A stretch of DNA of 40,869 nucleotides from a virus. Position numbers and translations under genes: made by a program. The stretch spans positions 1-40,869 of IMG/VR virus record IMGVR_UViG_3300042882_000526; one strand, written 5' to 3'. The stretch's first letter is position 1. Each line of letters starts with the position of its first letter. The notes beneath the pieces were generated by a model. It did not search any database and was not told the origin of the DNA. It worked only from the letters and a program-made list of their open reading frames with translations. Below, in pieces: positions 2,160 to 23,834 of this stretch.

Positions 2160-2470
2160 TAGAACCCCCTCACCATCTTCAGGAAATCACTGGCATCCAT
2201 GATGACAACCCAATCTTTCTTGCTCTTGCGGTGAAGCACCATGGGGGTGTTGCCACCGCAGTCCGCTCGTGCCTGGGCCATGGCCGCCTCAAGGTCCAGC
2301 TTCTCCGTGCGCTTGACCTCGATATGAAAGCCCGGCAGGCCGGTGACGTCGGCGCTGTCTTTGCCGCCCTGATACTGCACCCCCCTCTTGCCGTCGAAGC
2401 CGTACTCGCGGAGGAGCGCGGCCACTTCGCGCTCTCCCACCTTTCCCTTGTCGCGACTTAGTTTTCCCAT
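2159..2470 (-). CDS. PDDEXK endonuclease / Holliday junction resolvase-like
   Basis: 103 aa from the ATG at 2470, which overlaps the TAA stop of the DNA polymerase (TAATG). The pattern KGKVGEREVAALLREYGF, then DSADVTGLPGFHIEVKRTE and a following helix (AMAQARADC) is that of small PD-(D/E)XK nucleases related to archaeal Hjc and phage VRR-type resolvases: E in the first helix, D of SADV, and E-x-K of HIEVKR. Likely role: cleavage of branched recombination or replication intermediates before packaging. A longer in-frame extension to 2527 exists but has no ribosome-binding site and lies within the polymerase gene. Confidence 0.75.
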   Translation of the reverse strand: MGKLSRDKGKVGEREVAALLREYGFDGKRGVQYQGGKDSADVTGLPGFHIEVKRTEKLDLEAAMAQARADCGGNTPMVLHRKSKKDWVVIMDASDFLKMVRGF

Positions 2471-4470
2471 TATTTCCTGTACCTCTTGCCACACCAGCCT
2501 TCCGCCTTGACGGGCCAGTGGGCGCACCAGGCTGGAAGATCGCCTACCATAAATTCTATCAGCCTCTCGACCGGGAGATCAACTCCTAATCCCTCGTCGA
2601 CCTCCGTTACGATCTCGTCGTAGACGGTCATCAGCACAGGCATTTCGGGGTCGCACCTACGCTGGCCATGCACCAGGATATCGCGGCACGTCGCCTGCGT
2701 CACGCCCTGCGCCAATTTCCCGCCCCATGTGTCGATGCGCTGCCAGTGGCCGGACTTCTGGCTCATGTAAGTTAGTACCACTTCGGACCTATCCGTGTGG
2801 GGGTTGACCTTCTCCTTGAGCAGCGGGTCGTAGTAGGCGATGTTGCGGGATGACGGCAGGGTGCAGACGAGCCACCGCCCACGCACCTGGTACTTCACCC
2901 CGAACGCCTCGCACTGCTTGCCCGGCTTCAGCACCGCCTCGTGCGCCGCGTCCTGGAGGCCATACCACAGGCCCACACCGGCCTCGCCGTCCTTGACCTC
3001 CTGGTCCCACGGCGGGCGGGCGATGTTGGGGTGCTTGCGCCGCCATGCGTTCTTGAAGCCGTTTACTTCAGTATCGCAAAAGCGATCGCTGTCATCAAAG
3101 TTGCGCCAAGCGCCGACGCCACCGCCAAACCCGAAAGCAAGCTCCCCAACTTTGCCAACCTCCTGCCGGGCCACGGGATCAGTAGCTTTAGTGATTGCAC
3201 GGCCAAGAGCAGCACTAGCAAAAGCGCAATAAGGATCATCCCCACGTCTGAATAGATCAAGTTTGCTCTCCTCTCCTGCGATAGCTGCGATGCCCACGCT
3301 CTCGATCGACGCCAGGTCGACGGAGCAGAGGTTCTTCCCCTCCCCCGCCATGAACATGGGACGCAGGGCGTCGGCCACGCATTGCATGGGGTCGCCGTAC
3401 ATCATGCGCAGCCAGTCGGGATCGCGTGTAGCGATGGCCTCGATCAAGCTCTCCGGGTCGGCGTCTAGCTTAGGTCGCGGTAGGTTGAGCGGCTGGACGA
3501 GACGCCCCGCATTACGGCCCGTGAAAGCGCCGTGATACTGCGAGAGGCCACGAACACGGCCATCCGCGCATACAGCAGACAGTAGTCCAGCCAGCTTCTT
3601 CGTACTGGCCTTCGCAAGCGACGCTCTGATCTCAAGTACACGCCGCTCGACGGAGCCTTGTTCCGCGCGAGGGATCGCCGCTGCGACGGTGTCTGCCGTG
3701 AGGTCATCCAATCCTCCATCCACTTTCCATTGAACGAAGTCCAGTATCTCGGCCACCTGATTGGCCGTCTCTATCCTGCCGCCCGTGATCTCGACAAGCT
3801 CCGCGGTCAGTTCCTTCTCGACTTCCTTCACGATCGCGATGGCGTTATGCACGCTTTCCACGTCGATCGTAATGCCCCGCGAGTTCATCTTCTCGTTGAG
3901 CAGGAACACCCCGCGCTCCGGGGCGGGCAGCGCGCCCAGTTCCCTGCGGATACGCTGCTCGACGCGCACGTCCTGCTTACAGTAGTCGTATAGCTCGGCC
4001 AGAAGCTCCGGGTCTTGGACGCGGGTGCGCGGGTCTTTCTTCTTGGGCTTCTGCGGCTTGCACAACAGGTTGATTAGCTGCTTGCCACGCTTGTCCTTGC
4101 GCACGTCCAGCCCGAGAGCCGCGGCGCACTGTTCCAGCCCCAGGGGCAGCGCCCGACTGGCCGCGCGAGCCATCGTGCAGTCGTACTGGTGGGCCTCTAT
4201 CTCGGGCCAGCCCATACGCTTGACACAGACGTTCTCCCATATGGCGCGCTCAAAGCCGACATTGTGGGCGTCAACAACCGCGCCCTTGGCTATCGCTCGC
4301 AGCAGGCCGACCGGAAAAATCTCACCTGCTTTCCACAGGCGCGGCTCACCTTCGTTGTAAGCGTAAGCCATGCACAGGACTTCGGTGCTGGGATGCTCCG
4401 AGTACTTATAGGCCCCTGTCTTCTTCAGGTCGGCATCGCTGTATGTTTCGAAGTCGATCGTGATATGCAA
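2470..4470 (-). CDS. Family A DNA polymerase with 3'-5' exonuclease
   Basis: 666 aa replicative polymerase. The N-terminal DEDDy proofreading domain shows TIDFET (D6, E8), DAHNVGFE (about 67-74) and YDYCKQDV (Y163, D167). The polymerase domain has motif A LCSVDLASIES (about residue 380), motif B RQEVGKVGELAFGFGG (about 430-446) and motif C MTVYDEIVTEV (about 620), where the usual HDE is YDE. There is no 5'-3' exonuclease domain. Start: TTG at 4470, with GAGG 7 nt upstream; no better ATG fits the exonuclease motif so close to the N-terminus. A minus-strand terminator lies just upstream, so expression may be set by read-through from DUF2815. Codons 404-469, covering motif B, have sharply lowered GC3 and overlap a nested two-TM ORF. 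Confidence 0.93.
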   Translation of the reverse strand: MHITIDFETYSDADLKKTGAYKYSEHPSTEVLCMAYAYNEGEPRLWKAGEIFPVGLLRAIAKGAVVDAHNVGFERAIWENVCVKRMGWPEIEAHQYDCTMARAASRALPLGLEQCAAALGLDVRKDKRGKQLINLLCKPQKPKKKDPRTRVQDPELLAELYDYCKQDVRVEQRIRRELGALPAPERGVFLLNEKMNSRGITIDVESVHNAIAIVKEVEKELTAELVEITGGRIETANQVAEILDFVQWKVDGGLDDLTADTVAAAIPRAEQGSVERRVLEIRASLAKASTKKLAGLLSAVCADGRVRGLSQYHGAFTGRNAGRLVQPLNLPRPKLDADPESLIEAIATRDPDWLRMMYGDPMQCVADALRPMFMAGEGKNLCSVDLASIESVGIAAIAGEESKLDLFRRGDDPYCAFASAALGRAITKATDPVARQEVGKVGELAFGFGGGVGAWRNFDDSDRFCDTEVNGFKNAWRRKHPNIARPPWDQEVKDGEAGVGLWYGLQDAAHEAVLKPGKQCEAFGVKYQVRGRWLVCTLPSSRNIAYYDPLLKEKVNPHTDRSEVVLTYMSQKSGHWQRIDTWGGKLAQGVTQATCRDILVHGQRRCDPEMPVLMTVYDEIVTEVDEGLGVDLPVERLIEFMVGDLPAWCAHWPVKAEGWCGKRYRK
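3063..3260 (-). CDS. Nested two-TM protein inside DNA polymerase (holin candidate)
   Basis: 65-aa ORF on the polymerase strand but out of frame. TTG at 3260 is preceded by AGGAGAGGAGAG, a near-ideal Shine-Dalgarno 5-7 nt away; an alternative ATG is at 3239. TM1 (about 8-28) is a run of Leu/Val/Ile/Ala, followed by the basic turn PWPGRRLAK and TM2 (about 38-64, small and hydrophobic residues), ending in Lys. Length and topology match class II holins. Second codon positions of this ORF are third positions of the polymerase frame, which here falls to about 43% GC3 by hand count (21% over the first 29 codons) against 86% in the 50 codons upstream and 94% in the 48 downstream. That is what selection for hydrophobic residues in the second frame would produce. 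Expression is not demonstrated. Confidence 0.6.
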   Translation of the reverse strand: MIYSDVGMILIALLLVLLLAVQSLKLLIPWPGRRLAKLGSLLSGLAVASALGATLMTAIAFAILK

Positions 4471-4569: not shown

Positions 4570-5223
4570 CTAGAAGTCTTCGTCACCCGACGTCGGGTCC
4601 TGGGCGGAGGAGCCCCCCAGCACACCCTTGAACACGTCGTCGCGGCTCTTGCGGCCAAGACGTTCACCTTCGCCAACCTTCACGATGAAATTGACATAGG
4701 CCGTCAGGTAGCGATTGACGTTCTCGCCGCTCTCGATCTGGCTACCGACCAGGTTGAGTTCGGCCTTCACCAGGCATCCCGAGTAGAACTCCCGGTCCGC
4801 CGTCTCTGCGGGCACCTCGACCGCCTTGCCACCGACCGCCTTACTCAGGTCGGGAGCGAACTTGGACTTGGCCTCCAGCACCCACGCGCCCTTCATGTAC
4901 GCCATGCGATCGGCGGACTTGTCGGGGTTCTTCTTCATCGCCTTCTCGATCACCTTCTCACCGAGGGTGAACTTCTTGCTCCAGTCCTTGAACTCGACGC
5001 TGGAGTTGGTTTCCTTCGCCGCCTTGATATAGGCCGCCTTGACCGCCTCGACCGTATCCGTGTCCGACTGCGGGATCAGGAAGGTAGCGTTGTAGCTGCC
5101 GTTCTGATCGTCCACGACGGACTTGCGGGTGCGGGCGTCGAACTTGGTCTTGGCGAGGATCGGATGGTACAGCACCAGCTTGGCGGGACCGATCACGACG
5201 AGGGAGGGAGTAATCTTAGCCAT
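4570..5223 (-). CDS. DUF2815 single-stranded DNA-binding-like protein
   Basis: 217 aa. The opening (MAKITPSLVVIGPAKLVLYH), the central NGSYNATFLIPQ and the C-terminal NRYLTAYVNFIVKV fit the DUF2815 family, which accompanies DUF2800 and Pol A in many phages and is regarded as an ssDNA-binding protein. The acidic, Phe-ending tail (SGDEDF) resembles the partner-binding tip of SSB proteins and supports that role. Just before the tail is SRDDVFKGVL, a segment also found at the extreme C-terminus of the upstream DUF2800 protein. It has its own minus-strand promoter candidate (5258-5286) and a terminator right after it, suggesting a separately boosted, abundant product. Confidence 0.85.
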   Translation of the reverse strand: MAKITPSLVVIGPAKLVLYHPILAKTKFDARTRKSVVDDQNGSYNATFLIPQSDTDTVEAVKAAYIKAAKETNSSVEFKDWSKKFTLGEKVIEKAMKKNPDKSADRMAYMKGAWVLEAKSKFAPDLSKAVGGKAVEVPAETADREFYSGCLVKAELNLVGSQIESGENVNRYLTAYVNFIVKVGEGERLGRKSRDDVFKGVLGGSSAQDPTSGDEDF

Positions 5224-5257
5224 TTACAATTCGCCTTTCAAAGTAGTTAACCCAACT

Positions 5258-5286
5258 ATTATGCCACGCTACGATTACGCTTACAA
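5258..5286 (-). promoter_or_regulatory. Promoter candidate for DUF2815 (minus strand)
   Basis: TTGTAA (complement of 5281-5286) and CATAAT (complement of 5258-5263) are separated by 17 bp, a fair match to a sigma70-type promoter. It overlaps the stop codon of the DUF2800 gene and points to the DUF2815 start at 5223. Confidence 0.5.
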
Positions 5287-6450
5287 TACCCCTTTGAAAA
5301 CTTCATCACGGTTGCGCACCGCCTGCCCAGCCCTGGCGTCGGTATCCGGGGCCACGGTCATGCCGGTGTCGGGCTTGTAGGCGTACTTCTTCACGAAGTC
5401 CTTGCCGCCTTCCAGCTTCTCAATGGCCGGGGGTGTCTTCAGCTTCTTCTCGTAGGCGGCCTCACCGAACGTGTCGACCACCGGGGCGTCGTCCTTGAAC
5501 ACCCGATCGGACTTCTTCGCCACCATCTTCCAACCGCTGATCTGCTTGCCTGCACGCAGCCGGGTGAAAATCTCCTCGTCGAAGACCTTGGCGAGGCCCT
5601 TCACGATGTTCGTCTCGGTGGCCGCGAGGCCCAGTTCCCAGTCTTCCATAGCCTTGATGATCTCCGGTGTGTAGGTCAGAACACGCGCCCGCATTTCCTT
5701 GATGGCGGGGCAGGTCAGCCTTTTAGGGCAGAAGGAGGAGTTGCACCACGGACCGGGCTGTAAAAAAGGCTCCGGTTGTTCCGTGCGTCGGGCGGCGGCA
5801 AGCCAATCGTCACGCAGCCATGCCTTGAGCACGCCCACGCTTGTCCACCACGATCTAACAGGCTCCACCCCGTATACACGCGGCTGACAGATGTTGATCT
5901 CAACGGGGAAGTCGTCATCCTGCCATGCCTCCGTTCCGTACAGCGCGCCCACGGCGTACTGCATAAGCTGGGTGTTCTTCTCTGCCGATACCATGATACC
6001 GGCGCCGTGCTTGTAATCGGCCACAACCGCTTGCTTGTCCCCAATAAGGGTGCAGTCCGTGGTCCCGAAGAAGTCAGGATGCACTTCGGCCAGGTGGAAG
6101 CGCTCCTCCACCAGGACCCGCGACCCCAGTTTACTTCCCCGCAGGCCAAGCTCGTCTATCTTGCCGCGGATATGGTCCAAATATATCTGAACCGCCTCCG
6201 CATCACTTTCGCCAAATTCCGCGTCCGTGGCAAAGTCGGCTTCGCCAATATGCACTTTGGCGTCTTCGCCCGACACAAGACAACGGGCCGCGATATCATG
6301 CGCCAGAGTGCCGTCGTCGGCGTAGGAGCTTCTGGTATTTGCGCCGGGGCCAAGCTCCTGGATCAGCTTCACACTGCCAGGGCAATGGAACCAGCGGTGC
6401 GTACTCGACGCGCCGAGTTTGGAGTGGATCGTAGGAGAAGTTTCACCCAT
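5281..6450 (-). CDS. DUF2800 Cas4/RecB-like nuclease
   Basis: 389 aa. N-terminal GASSTHRWFHCPGSVKL is typical of DUF2800. A PD-(D/E)XK core is visible as HPDFFGTTDCTL (motif II) and QAVVADYKHGAG (motif III, D-x-K). A late Cys group, CNSSFCPKRLTC, with an earlier Cys (HCPGS) resembles the Fe-S cluster ligands of Cas4/AddB-type exonucleases. Predicted role: 5'-end resection or recombination during replication, together with the DUF2815 protein encoded next. The start at 6450 overlaps the preceding gene by 8 nt. The protein ends NRDEVFKGVL, nearly identical to a C-terminal segment of DUF2815. Confidence 0.85.
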   Translation of the reverse strand: MGETSPTIHSKLGASSTHRWFHCPGSVKLIQELGPGANTRSSYADDGTLAHDIAARCLVSGEDAKVHIGEADFATDAEFGESDAEAVQIYLDHIRGKIDELGLRGSKLGSRVLVEERFHLAEVHPDFFGTTDCTLIGDKQAVVADYKHGAGIMVSAEKNTQLMQYAVGALYGTEAWQDDDFPVEINICQPRVYGVEPVRSWWTSVGVLKAWLRDDWLAAARRTEQPEPFLQPGPWCNSSFCPKRLTCPAIKEMRARVLTYTPEIIKAMEDWELGLAATETNIVKGLAKVFDEEIFTRLRAGKQISGWKMVAKKSDRVFKDDAPVVDTFGEAAYEKKLKTPPAIEKLEGGKDFVKKYAYKPDTGMTVAPDTDARAGQAVRNRDEVFKGVL

Positions 6451-7192
6451 TGTTGCACACTACCCCACATTCAATGTCCGGTTCGTCGTTGTAGCGCCCC
6501 GCGTCCGGGTCCAGCTCGTCCAGATACACGCGGCTGGTGACACCCCAGCTACGGTCCTTCAGTATCGTGGCACCGATCTCGCGCTCCATCTTTGCCATGC
6601 GCTCAAAGTCCTCCGGGAAGTCGCGACGTATCTTGTTCCAGTATCCCATGCCTCCCTTCACACAGCCAATACAATTATTGTTCTTGTAGCCCAGCTTATA
6701 CATTTCCGGCATCGCGATACCCGCTTCACGGATACGGAGGTAGCACTCTCGCTTGCTCACGCCCTGATCCAGAAGCAGAAAGTCTCCGATGACTTCGAAG
6801 TTCTCGGCCTTGAACCGCTCGATACGAGCCTTCTCATCCGACGTAAAGCCAAACACCTGGATATCGTCGGGTAGTTGAAACTCCTTACGCACGTTCTTTT
6901 TTAGCTCTGTGGTGCAACGCGCGCCCTTGTTGCCCACCAGCCAGCGTGTACGGCGGAACACGTCCATGATATCGGTGTACTCCGACGACTTCAATAGCTG
7001 AATGGGAAGATCGTACCAACGCGACACGTCGTCCAGAAAGCGTCGGTTGTCCGGGTGTTCGTAGCGCAGCGTGTCACAGTAGGCAACGGTGACGCGCTCC
7101 TTTCCGTACTTCTCGATCGCCAGCTTACCGGCTACCGCGCTGGCCGCGCCGCATGAAAACCATACGACCACGCGGGGAAGTTCTACTTGCAT
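6443..7192 (-). CDS. PAPS reductase-like PP-loop protein
   Basis: 249 aa from the ATG at 7192 (a GTG four codons upstream at 7204 is possible). N-terminal VVWFSCGAASAVAGKLA is the PP-loop of phage PAPS-reductase/ATP-pyrophosphatase proteins; YCDTLRYEHPDN, GARCTTELKK and CIGCVKGGMGYW follow in family order, with the Cys pair likely functional. In phages these proteins have been linked to sulfur chemistry, including DNA or tRNA modification; the true substrate is unknown. It overlaps Rz1 upstream and DUF2800 downstream, so it is co-transcribed with both lysis and replication genes. Confidence 0.85.
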   Translation of the reverse strand: MQVELPRVVVWFSCGAASAVAGKLAIEKYGKERVTVAYCDTLRYEHPDNRRFLDDVSRWYDLPIQLLKSSEYTDIMDVFRRTRWLVGNKGARCTTELKKNVRKEFQLPDDIQVFGFTSDEKARIERFKAENFEVIGDFLLLDQGVSKRECYLRIREAGIAMPEMYKLGYKNNNCIGCVKGGMGYWNKIRRDFPEDFERMAKMEREIGATILKDRSWGVTSRVYLDELDPDAGRYNDEPDIECGVVCNNG

Positions 7193-7365
7193 AGCTTCTT
7201 CCACACCGCGTTGTTCTCCTGAACCTGGCGCACCGTCTCGGGCGTGTCACGCGCCGCCGAGTAAGTGACCGGAATGTAGCTGGTGCAGAAGGTATCGACC
7301 GGGACGGGGGTGCAGCTAGCGAGGACCCCAGCGATCACGGTTAAATTCATCATCTTCAGCATCAA
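7183..7365 (-). CDS. Rz1: Rz1-like outer-membrane spanin lipoprotein
   Basis: 60 aa (58-59 from the alternative starts at 7362/7353). A short signal peptide ends in the lipobox VLASC, giving a mature lipoprotein of about 43 residues with the common o-spanin text YIPVTYSAARDTPETVRQVQ and NNAVWKKLC. It starts inside the 3' end of the Rz gene, overlapping about 50 nt in a different frame, the classic embedded Rz/Rz1 arrangement. Role: outer-membrane half of the spanin that fuses the two membranes in the last step of lysis. The 3' end overlaps the PAPS-reductase-like gene. Confidence 0.85.
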   Translation of the reverse strand: MMLKMMNLTVIAGVLASCTPVPVDTFCTSYIPVTYSAARDTPETVRQVQENNAVWKKLCK

Positions 7366-17673: not shown

Positions 17674-17937
17674 ATGGCCCACGCACCCTTCACGATGCCC
17701 ACCCGTCTTGTCCGCATCCGCTGGGAAGACGCCTCCAGCCAGGACACGGGTGGGTGGATCAGTTGGGAGGAGATACAGAACTCCGGTCCGGCCATCATCC
17801 AGTCGGTCGGCTTCCTGGCCAAGGAGGATGACAAGTGCGTGGTCCTCGTGGGCTCGATCTGCGAGGAGGACGGCACCGCGGGTAGCGACGTGTGTATCCC
17901 GAAGGCGTACATTGTGGAATTGAAGGAGTTGGTGTGA
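17674..17937 (+). CDS. Hypothetical protein, 87 aa
   Basis: Begins at ATG 17674, or at an in-frame ATG at 17695 (MPTRLVRIRWEDAS). No Shine-Dalgarno is visible for either. The protein looks like a small beta domain (GWISWEEIQNSGPAIIQSVG, DDKCVVLVGSICEEDG, then VCIPKAYIVELKEL). No known function. Its last codons carry the ribosome-binding site and start of the XF1762-like gene, so the two are translationally coupled. Confidence 0.7.
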   Translation: MAHAPFTMPTRLVRIRWEDASSQDTGGWISWEEIQNSGPAIIQSVGFLAKEDDKCVVLVGSICEEDGTAGSDVCIPKAYIVELKELV

Positions 17938-18389
17938 CCCTTGAAGTGTTCCCGCTCACATTGAAACAAGCCAACGAAATTGTTGCGACCGGCCACCGCC
18001 ACCACAAGCCCGTGACGGGGCACCGCTTTAGTCTGGGGGTGCGCAACGAATGGGGAGGCGTCCACGGCGCGGCCATCATTGGACGACCTGTCGCGCGCAA
18101 GACAGAGCAGTACGAGACGGCGGAAGTTACTCGCATGGTAACGGATGGCACAAAGAACGCCTGCTCTATCCTGTACGCCGCCGCCGCGCGTGCGTGCAAG
18201 GCCATGGGCTACAGGTCTATCCAGACATTCATCCTGGACGAGGAGCCGGGGGTGTCGGTGGAGGCGGCGGGGTGGACGCTGGTGGCCACGACACGAGGGG
18301 GCGACTGGAACAGCGCGTCGAAACCGGGGCGCAGAACGGATCAGCCGATGGGGGCCAAGAAGAAATATGAGAAGGTGCTGAACGCTTGA
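17934..18389 (+). CDS. XF1762-like GNAT-fold protein
   Basis: 151 aa from GTG 17934 (GGAG 5 nt upstream), overlapping the previous stop. The sequence (LEVFPLTLKQANEIVATGHR, HHKPVTGHRFSLGV, GVHGAAIIGRPVAR, AEVTRMVTDGTKNACSILYA, then AGWTLVA) matches phage/plasmid XF1762-family proteins, predicted N-acetyltransferase-like. The substrate is unknown. It often sits upstream of phage packaging genes, as here, and ends overlapping the terminase TTG start. Confidence 0.8.
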   Translation: MTLEVFPLTLKQANEIVATGHRHHKPVTGHRFSLGVRNEWGGVHGAAIIGRPVARKTEQYETAEVTRMVTDGTKNACSILYAAAARACKAMGYRSIQTFILDEEPGVSVEAAGWTLVATTRGGDWNSASKPGRRTDQPMGAKKKYEKVLNA

Positions 18390-21356: not shown

Positions 21357-23834
21357 ATGACCTCCAATGTATTCGGCTATGTTCTAACCGCGGAGGCCAT
21401 CGAAAGCGCCTTGGGCTTTGCCCCGGCTGCGGCTGCGGGGGTGGACTGGATCGACGGTTCCGTCACCTCGCCCGGCGCTTTCTTTGCGTCAGACGCCAAC
21501 ACTGGCTTCTTCCGCCCCGCCGCAGATACGATTGGTGTGGCGGTGGGCGGCGTGCAGGGAGGTGTTATCACCCCCGCCGCGGGCACGGCCAATGCTGCGT
21601 GGGGCGCGGGGGCGCTTGTCTCCGTCACGACCGGCGCGGACAACGTAGCGATCGGGGCCTCGGCCCTGGCCGCGAACACCACCGGGGCGAACAATACCGC
21701 AGTAGGCTACCAGGCTCTTACCTCCAACGTCAGCGGGTCCAACGCGGTCGCGGTGGGGGCCAACGCCCTGTCTTCGCATACAAATGGTGTCGGCAACACG
21801 GCGGTCGGAACGGGAACGCTCGCTGCGATCACGTCCGAAGACTACAACACCGCGGTAGGCACTTCCGCACTGGCGGTCAACACCGCTGACGGCAACACGG
21901 CTATCGGCCACAATGCAATGGCCGCAAATACTGTGGGCGCTAATACCGTGGCGGTCGGTCGCGATGCGCTTGCGGCCAACACGACGGGCACGTCCAACGT
22001 GGCGGTCGGCTATCAGGCCATGCGGGTCAACACCACGGGCCGCAGCAACACGGCGGTTGGATACCAGGCTCTTGCCGCAAACACCGTGGGCTTTAGCTGT
22101 ACCGCAGTCGGCACGCTTGCCTTATCGCAGAATATCGACGGCACGCACAATGTAGCGGTCGGGCACCAGGCGCTCCGCGACAATACGACGGGCTGGTACA
22201 ACGTCGCGGTCGGCCAAGCCGCGCTGCATCTGAACACCACCAATCAGTACAACATTGCTGTAGGTTATTCGGTCCTTGGCAACGCCACGGCGGACGCGAA
22301 TGTCGCTATTGGCCACAACTGCATGGATGCGACGACTACGGGCGCGGGCAACACGGGCGTCGGCCATGAAGTTCTGGCCTGGAACCTGGTCGGCACTCGT
22401 AATGTTGGCGTGGGCTATCATGCGTTGTGGAACACCGAGACGGACGACAACACGGCAGTCGGCTACGAGGCGCTGGTAACAAACACGACCGGTACGCAGA
22501 ACACGGCGGTTGGTTCCCGTGCGCTCGCGACGATCAACCGGGCGGGCCCGAACGTGGCGGTCGGATATAGCGCCATGCGTTACACCACGACCGGCGCGAA
22601 CAACACGGCGGTTGGTCCAAGCGCACTGGCCGCGAACACGACCGGCAGTTTCAACACGGCAGTCGGCTCTGGCGCGCTCACGACAGCGGTGAGCGGCGCG
22701 AACAACACGGCGGTTGGCTACAACGCTCTGACGCTTCTTATCAGCGGCACGAACAACACGGCGGTTGGTTCTGGCACTCTCGCGGCCATGACGACGGGCG
22801 TGCAGAACGTCGCGGTTGGCGCGGGCGCTCTTGCAGCGTCGGCTACCGGTACGCTCAACGTGGCGGTCGGTTACAACGCCCTGAACGGCGGCACGACGGG
22901 CTCGTCCAACGTGGCGGTTGGGGCTGCGGCCATGCTGGTGTCCACTACAGCCGCCCACAACGTCGCCATCGGTGCGACGGCTCTGACGGCCACGACAACC
23001 AGTTCGTCCAACGTGGCGGTTGGCTCGGGCGCAATGGCCGCGACGACTTCCGGTTCGTCCAACGTAGCTGCCGGGCGTGATGCCATGTCGGCCAATACGA
23101 CTGGAGCGAACAACGTCGCCATAGGCCGCGATGCGCTGAAGACTTCGACGGTGGGCGCGAGCAACGTCGCCATCGGTGAAAGCTCGCAAACGCTCTCCAC
23201 GGCGAGTAACAACACCTCTGTTGGACGCAGCACGCTCGCGGCTAACACGACGGGCGCGAACAACGCCGCTCTGGGCAACAACGCCCTGGCGGCAAACACA
23301 ATCGGTGTTTCCAACGTGGCGGTCGGTTTTGACGCGCTGGTGGGCAACACCACGGGTATTCAGAACACGGCGCTGGGCCGCCTTGCGGGCAGCACGGCCA
23401 CGACGGGTAGCAACTTGACGGTGCTGGGATATAACGCACAGCCGTCTTCTGCTGCGGCCACGAACGAAATCACTCTGGGCAATTCCAGCGTGGCGACGAT
23501 CCGCGCGCAGGTCACGACCATCACCGCGCTTTCAGACGAACGCGACAAGACCAATATCCGTCCGCTGGACCTGGGTCTTGATTTCATCGACAAGGTAGAG
23601 CCGGTATGGTTTGAATGGAACATGCGCGACGGCGGCAAGGTCGGCGGGACCGAGGGCGGTTTCATTGCGCAGCAGCTACAGGCGGCGCAGGCCGAACACG
23701 GCGCAGAGGCGCTTGGCTTGGTCTTTGACGCCAACCCCGATCGGCTGGAAGCCACGCCTGGCAAACTACTCCCTGTTGTGGTAAAAGCACTTCAAGAGGT
23801 GAGCGCCCGGTTGCGGGCACTGGAGGGAAATTGA
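21357..23834 (+). CDS. Repeat-rich tail fibre/spike with peptidase S74 chaperone domain
   Basis: 825 aa. The N-terminus includes the common fibre segment SPGAFFASDANTGFFRPAAD (about 38-57). Residues about 85-690 are about 35 repeats of 17 residues with core NTAVGxxALxxNTTGxN, like the trimeric beta-roll heads of autotransporter adhesins. The C-terminal about 100 residues are a peptidase S74 intramolecular chaperone: LSDERDKTNI (catalytic Ser about 725 with Lys), then VEPVWFEWN, FIAQQLQAA and a terminal coiled coil (LPVVVKALQEVSARLRALEG). It should trimerise, fold and self-cleave to release the mature fibre. It lies between terminase and portal, away from the gp17-like fibre gene. Confidence 0.88.
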   Translation: MTSNVFGYVLTAEAIESALGFAPAAAAGVDWIDGSVTSPGAFFASDANTGFFRPAADTIGVAVGGVQGGVITPAAGTANAAWGAGALVSVTTGADNVAIGASALAANTTGANNTAVGYQALTSNVSGSNAVAVGANALSSHTNGVGNTAVGTGTLAAITSEDYNTAVGTSALAVNTADGNTAIGHNAMAANTVGANTVAVGRDALAANTTGTSNVAVGYQAMRVNTTGRSNTAVGYQALAANTVGFSCTAVGTLALSQNIDGTHNVAVGHQALRDNTTGWYNVAVGQAALHLNTTNQYNIAVGYSVLGNATADANVAIGHNCMDATTTGAGNTGVGHEVLAWNLVGTRNVGVGYHALWNTETDDNTAVGYEALVTNTTGTQNTAVGSRALATINRAGPNVAVGYSAMRYTTTGANNTAVGPSALAANTTGSFNTAVGSGALTTAVSGANNTAVGYNALTLLISGTNNTAVGSGTLAAMTTGVQNVAVGAGALAASATGTLNVAVGYNALNGGTTGSSNVAVGAAAMLVSTTAAHNVAIGATALTATTTSSSNVAVGSGAMAATTSGSSNVAAGRDAMSANTTGANNVAIGRDALKTSTVGASNVAIGESSQTLSTASNNTSVGRSTLAANTTGANNAALGNNALAANTIGVSNVAVGFDALVGNTTGIQNTALGRLAGSTATTGSNLTVLGYNAQPSSAAATNEITLGNSSVATIRAQVTTITALSDERDKTNIRPLDLGLDFIDKVEPVWFEWNMRDGGKVGGTEGGFIAQQLQAAQAEHGAEALGLVFDANPDRLEATPGKLLPVVVKALQEVSARLRALEGN
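21609..23427 (+). repeat. Tandem 51-bp coding repeats of the fibre
   Basis: Period of 17 codons, with occasional 16-codon units, each containing a variant of AACACGGCGGTCGG. Copies are diverged but share enough identity to allow unequal recombination and therefore length variation of the fibre. Boundaries are approximate. Confidence 0.85.

Follow-up and report, generated by a model that had tools for sequence, protein, structure and literature searches.

A conserved nuclease-SSB gene pair with a peptide in common

The stretch of DNA analysed here (the window) comprises 40,869 nucleotides of an IMG/VR virus record. The three genes considered below all lie on its minus strand, in the order DUF2800, DUF2815 and polymerase, and their features are as follows:

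5281-6450, minus strand: DUF2800 gene (389 aa), RecB/Cas4/EXO5-like exonuclease (PF10926, E 5.1e-67; phrog_69, exonuclease)
5284-5310, minus strand: C-terminal motif of DUF2800, RDEVFKGVL, the last nine residues; the motif Phe is F385 (from the sequence)
4570-5223, minus strand: DUF2815 gene (217 aa), T7 gp2.5/Enc34-type OB-fold ssDNA-binding protein (PF10991, E 7.8e-17; phrog_112)
4618-4644, minus strand: proximal tail motif of DUF2815, RDDVFKGVL, between the last β-strand and the acidic end, outside the modelled core (pLDDT about 58)
4573-4590, minus strand: acidic tip of DUF2815 (...SGDEDF), distal to the motif, a tail of the usual acidic SSB/gp2.5 type that ends with Phe, absent from the DUF2800 of the window
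2470-4470, minus strand: family A DNA polymerase (phrog_17, E 7e-75), third gene of the duf2800-gp2.5-polA module

The gene order and the families are those of the known duf2800-gp2.5-polA module, in which DUF2800 is a PD-(D/E)XK nuclease; that report describes the gene neighbourhood only, and neither a physical link nor a shared peptide (PMC8093625). The DUF2800 model matches AdnA/AddB, Cas4, EXO5, MGME1 and lambda exonuclease, with Z-scores of 15.2 for the AdnA nuclease domain, about 10-11 for AddB/Cas4 and 8.7 for lambda exonuclease. Four cysteines (C23, C236, C241 and C247) are invariant among 47 homologues. They are arranged as in the Fe-S cluster nucleases of the RecB family (AddB, AdnA, Cas4 and EXO5), and the folds of these Fe-S enzymes are the best matches of the model.

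DUF2815 matches PF10991 (Enc34_ssDNA-bd) with 61.9 bits against a cut-off of 26, while its model returned Z-scores of 17.4 to 5odl, 16.1 to 5odj and 13.0 to T7 gp2.5 (16-17 to the Enc34 SSB, 4jg2 and 4klk); sequence identity to the crystallised proteins is just ~15-23%. On these profile and model matches, the DUF2815 of the window is a member of the Enc34/gp2.5-type SSB family (PF10991, phrog_112), with the same fold and acidic tail as Enc34 ORF6 and T7 gp2.5, and it is predicted to prefer ssDNA over dsDNA. DUF2800 adjoins DUF2815 in the window and in its relatives, and DUF2800 was present at each of the 77 loci newly fetched by means of DUF2815, without a single orphan of either kind among them, such that the two appear to be near-obligate partners. 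One query returned 984 public phage records with a DUF2800 match, and a scan of genome contigs matched 81 stretches, none of them a confirmed relative.

The initial annotation drew attention to SRDDVFKGVL near the end of DUF2815 and to NRDEVFKGVL as the end of DUF2800, and both peptides are indeed present. DUF2800 ends in VRNRDEVFKGVL (NRDEVFKGVL), its copy being the true C-terminus; DUF2815 ends in GRKSRDDVFKGVLGGSSAQDPTSGDEDF, its copy being subterminal, ~16 residues before the end of the protein, and its tail, which reads SRDDVFKGVLGGSSAQDPTSGDEDF, closes with the acidic TSGDEDF. The identical residues are encoded (DUF2815/DUF2800) by CGC/CGT, GAC/GAT, GTG/GTT, TTC/TTC, AAG/AAA, GGT/GGG, GTG/GTA and CTG/TTG, which bears out the earlier count of different codons at seven of eight residues, with TTC alone in common. 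Eight IMG/VR relatives, with DUF2815 proteins 55-97% identical, retain both copies, in the form RD[EDA]VF[KER]G[VAK]L at the C-terminus of DUF2800 and R[DE][DE]VFKG[VAS]L in DUF2815. Furthermore, pN/pS in the motif codons is about 0.18 in both genes among close relatives, indicating purifying selection.

As a separate observation, the DUF2800 motif copy (5281-5310) uses mostly A/T-ending codons and the DUF2815 copy (4618-4644) mostly G/C-ending ones, and the same contrast is seen in several relatives; it may reflect a signal for translation or regulation where the two genes meet.

The motif across the family and its variation within phages

More distant relatives were drawn from annotated phages and 160 IMG/VR loci, sampled via conserved DUF2800 or DUF2815 patterns (a sample and no census), and statistics were computed on 77 DUF2800/DUF2815 pairs dereplicated at 80% DUF2815 identity. 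The proximal motif was located by alignment column, and motif fit decided between the aromatics in the 18 tails that have two or more of them. Across the 77 pairs, the nuclease tail and the SSB tail alike contain A-x-x-[D/E/A/V]-F-x-x-[V/I/L] (A at -4, D/E/A/V at -1 and V/I/L at +3 relative to the Phe) within short disordered segments, which in distant relatives follow a conserved 'VPxSDKR' in the case of DUF2800 and 'DGExLGG' in that of DUF2815. The aromatic is present in 77 of 77 DUF2800 tails, and the strict motif in 53% of them versus 9.5% of shuffled tails; F385, conserved in at least 90% of 47 diverse homologues, is among the most conserved residues of DUF2800. Both tails bear an acid at -1 in 47 of the 77 pairs. 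Typical nuclease/SSB pairs are TAKNDF/SAESDF, DAKSAF/PASKAF and AKSVFSA/AASVFSP, and further ones LANEYFKRK/LANKFFKAK, SVSVNDFD/SVSVDDFE (the nuclease peptide being terminal) and ADDFDVIDE/DDDFDVFDD. The motif is found in phages of Firmicutes, of Proteobacteria and of Gardnerella, and switches per phage lineage. The two conditions under which the initial annotation would have been refuted were examined, and neither applies: the motif occurs family-wide, in both proteins across the 77 pairs rather than in one of them without conservation, and lies outside both folded cores.

Other genes of the module were considered as carriers and set aside, the polymerase, upstream and downstream genes being mostly without the motif: it occurs in 3 of 54 polymerase-like proteins and in 5 of 63 products of the immediately upstream gene, versus 41 of 77 DUF2800 proteins, and the polymerase of the window ends in GWCGKRYRK, without the tail motif. 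The SSBs of loci L154 and L171 bear a second motif-like tip (SVDDLFGED and SADDLFG, respectively) at the extreme end, after a long low-complexity spacer, and many other SSB tails finish in xxLFD or DDFLS.

The two tails of a phage match one another beyond what other pairings yield. The best 9-mer tail score within a phage averages 19.7, as compared to 15.0 ± 0.5 for permuted partners (77 pairs; p ≤ 5e-5; highest mean in 20,000 permutations, 17.5) and to 13.5 for the phage's own shuffled tails. This match holds when partners are restricted to 40-80% identity (p = 0.001), at dereplication to 60, 50, 45, 40 and 35% identity (below 35%: n = 12, p ≤ 5e-5), upon removal of the window clade, and in a partial Mantel test with core divergence controlled (r = 0.13, p = 0.0015). 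When the tails are aligned on the Phe, the co-varying positions are -1 (z 6.8), -4 (6.0), +1 (4.6), +2 (3.9), +3 (3.9) and -5 (3.5). Joint lineage switches (nuclease/SSB) comprise RDEVFKGVL/RDDVFKGVL in the window, LANEYFKRK/LANKFFKAK in L131, AKSAF/ASKAF in the L133 clade, AKSVFS/AASVFS in L167 and NGAYDDEDED/SDAYDEDED in phage Enc34.

The nuclease and SSB tails are each short, disordered and A/D/E-rich, and one might ask whether chance or the common composition of disordered acidic tails could account for the resemblance; the permuted-partner and shuffled-tail controls refute this, leaving it hardly any credibility. Neither are the tails a recent DNA copy, because codon agreement equals the expectation from codon usage: the best pairs have 115 identical residues, at which 56 identical codons were observed and 56.2 expected. 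A DNA-level duplication is accordingly rejected, and the earlier proposal that the motif is kept at the protein level stands. An old copying of the end of one gene onto the other, retained without any binding function, would suit tails that are alike in length and position, as are the acidic ends of Enc34; it is nevertheless very improbable, given codon agreement at chance, the low pN/pS of the motif, and the repeated joint switches in distant lineages, which would require continuing selection or repeated copying. That the two proteins share a linear motif under joint selection is, to our mind, near certain.

Structural indications of the docking site

In published crystals of Enc34 ORF6/T7 gp2.5-type SSBs, the C-terminal tail lies on an adjacent SSB molecule (PMC5686142). 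Eleven C-terminal residues of the Enc34 SSB are invisible, and the last visible part of its tail enters the concave, seven-stranded sheet of the neighbouring molecule, with similar tail contacts in 4jg2, 4klk and gp2.5; in a chain model presented there, the C-termini touch the N-terminal strands and ssDNA lies in a separate cleft (PMC5686142). Loss of the last 21 residues, a truncation that takes the motif with it, leaves ssDNA binding unchanged and confers dsDNA binding (PMC5686142). Counting residues on the sequence, the last visible one is the Asp right after the motif Tyr, and the inserted piece of tail therefore includes the motif. From these crystals and this count we deduce that the SSB tail motif sits in the groove of the neighbouring SSB, bearing in mind that tail contacts seen in crystals may be artefacts of the lattice and that the Enc34 authors themselves ask for further evidence on them (PMC5686142).

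Enc34 also served as a test case, as the PDB alignment revealed that Tyr replaces the motif Phe in its SSB tail (SDAYDEDED), and a Tyr was expected in its nuclease before the nuclease sequence was examined. The Enc34 DUF2800 protein ends in NGAYDDEDEDDDEV versus SDAYDEDEDEWDEDEV in the SSB, that is, NGAYDDEDED...DDEV and SDAYDEDED...DEDEV, and the aromatic is switched in both. The acidic ends at this locus (L205, 4463-6420) are also alike, with DDEDEDDDEV in the nuclease and DEDEDEWDEDEV in the SSB. The portion of the Enc34 work available to us treats the tail as the SSB's own and makes no mention of a motif in the adjacent nuclease (PMC5686142).

A read-through fusion of DUF2800, the 57 intergenic bases and DUF2815 in one frame was folded with AlphaFold2, with the same DUF2800 plus linker, without DUF2815, as control. 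The motif block (residues 381-390) reached a mean pLDDT of 77 in the fusion, with a short helix at 381-384, and 58 in the control, as one straight helix from 381 to 390, in runs that differ in alignment and chain length and in which the 20-residue read-through linker, by tethering the nuclease tail near the SSB N-terminus, could bias both the gain in pLDDT and the apparent place. The rest of the protein was predicted slightly better in the control, and the SSB's own motif stays at 58 in the fusion. These models suggest that the nuclease motif is better ordered with the SSB present, and the rise from 58 to 77 is an indirect basis for predicting a physical DUF2800-DUF2815 interaction. When the fusion is aligned structurally to 5odl, 5odk, 4jg2 and 5odj, the first aligned residues are 377-384 of the model; these belong to the nuclease tail and are paired with the SSB N-terminal region (the ranges being first and last aligned residues only). 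The alignment to 4klk begins at 416, inside DUF2815. The alignments agree with a predicted docking beside the SSB N-terminal strands, and are no proof of it.

Proposed coupling of nuclease and SSB, and alternative receptors

We propose that the C-terminus of the DUF2800 exonuclease copies its partner SSB's proximal tail motif. The SSB motif would dock in the concave β-sheet of a neighbouring SSB, beside the N-terminal strands, and help to chain SSBs along ssDNA; the nuclease copy would occupy that same groove on an SSB that is free or stands at the end of a chain, and the docked nuclease would recruit or seed the SSB/annealase on freshly made ssDNA. Tail mimicry of this kind would couple exonuclease to annealase, linking resection to ssDNA coating or annealing, and both peptides would diverge together in each lineage because one groove reads two peptides. 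We assign a probability of about 0.6 to the docking of the nuclease tail in the SSB groove and the resulting coupling of resection to the SSB; the use of the groove by the nuclease tail and its recruitment or hand-over function are what we infer. The odds seem to us about even for a general principle of this widespread phage replication and recombination module, in which a nuclease mimics the self-assembly peptide of its cognate SSB and thereby seeds or caps the SSB chain, a lineage-specific peptide-groove code keeping the pair specific.

The initial annotation had envisaged a linear motif through which both proteins bind one partner, for example the polymerase, the helicase or a host factor. 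Conservation, within-phage co-variation, codons and the place outside the cores strongly support the motif and one binding site; for the partners suggested the support is weaker than for the SSB itself, in view of the SSB-on-SSB crystals (PMC5686142) and the ordering of the nuclease tail by the SSB in the model. If both tails bound a third phage protein, it would most likely be the module's family A polymerase, with nuclease and SSB alternating at the fork. The module made up of the three genes is conserved (PMC8093625), the acidic tail of T7 gp2.5, which interacts with T7 polymerase and primase-helicase, offers a precedent (PMC5686142), and two ligands that diverge together would be compatible with any receptor common to them. 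However, the part of gp2.5 involved in this precedent is the acidic end, and the nuclease of the window has no such end, whereas the shared motif is the proximal one; the crystals put the tail on another SSB (PMC5686142), and the nuclease motif is predicted to gain order when the SSB alone is added. We therefore consider the polymerase an unlikely common receptor. The prospects are much poorer for a host replication protein such as the β sliding clamp, whose QxxLF-type motif has Gln at -4 and Leu/Met at -1 relative to the Phe. Some tails are clamp-like (SDLF in the AL nuclease, ADQMF in the L028 nuclease), yet the consensus of the 77 pairs has A at -4, D/E at -1 and no Gln (RDEVF in the window), acidic residues dominate at -1, and the motif spans phages of such diverse hosts while switching per phage lineage.

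Lambda Exo/Red-beta and HSV UL12/ICP8 are exonucleases encoded with an annealing or binding protein and thought to work in tandem with it, and DUF2800/DUF2815 are likewise a co-encoded nuclease and SSB, the latter a putative annealase; the RecB-family exonuclease fold and a gene adjoining the SSB/annealase gene are features of such two-component recombinases found here. The E. coli SSB-Ct is a short acidic peptide with a Phe at the extreme C-terminus, serving as a docking tag read by partner proteins, whereas in the present pair it is the partner that bears the peptide, with the SSB as its proposed reader. Nor is the shared motif an SSB-Ct-type tip, which is an acidic extreme C-terminus with a terminal Phe: the DUF2800 of the window ends in VFKGVL, and the shared motif of DUF2815 is subterminal. 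Red-beta binds lambda Exo via a folded C-terminal domain (PMC7496540), in contrast to the short tail peptide common to both partners proposed here. In ICP8, an aromatic motif (FNF) in the disordered C-terminal tail docks on the neighbouring molecule, leading to cooperative ssDNA binding (PMC12409425); the docking is similar and the proteins are not homologous, and the ICP8 literature examined reported no copy of this tail in the UL12 nuclease.

Both families, the gene module (PMC8093625) and the SSB fold with its swapped tails (PMC5686142) are already known. As far as the literature was searched, what appears from the sequences to be new is the presence of the SSB's motif in the nuclease and the co-variation of the two copies; the same searches gave no account of the way in which nuclease and gp2.5-like protein work together. 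Public phage records with DUF2800 and DUF2815 number in the hundreds, from phages of Firmicutes and of Gram-negative bacteria, and a co-varying peptide would provide a simple, testable answer on their cooperation: one peptide, one groove, one Phe. It also suggests a route to predict matching exonuclease/annealase combinations for recombineering.

Elsewhere in the window, a PAPS-reductase-like gene (6443-7204, phrog_424) lies immediately upstream of DUF2800, a relative of a phage DNA transfer protein is encoded at 442-1845 (phrog_1745, E 3.5e-165) and a Mom-like DNA modification protein at 17892-18389 (phrog_1384, E 7e-32). Finally, an 825-aa protein with many short NTAVGYxAL-type repeats (21357-23834) is likely a tail fibre or adhesin-like protein.
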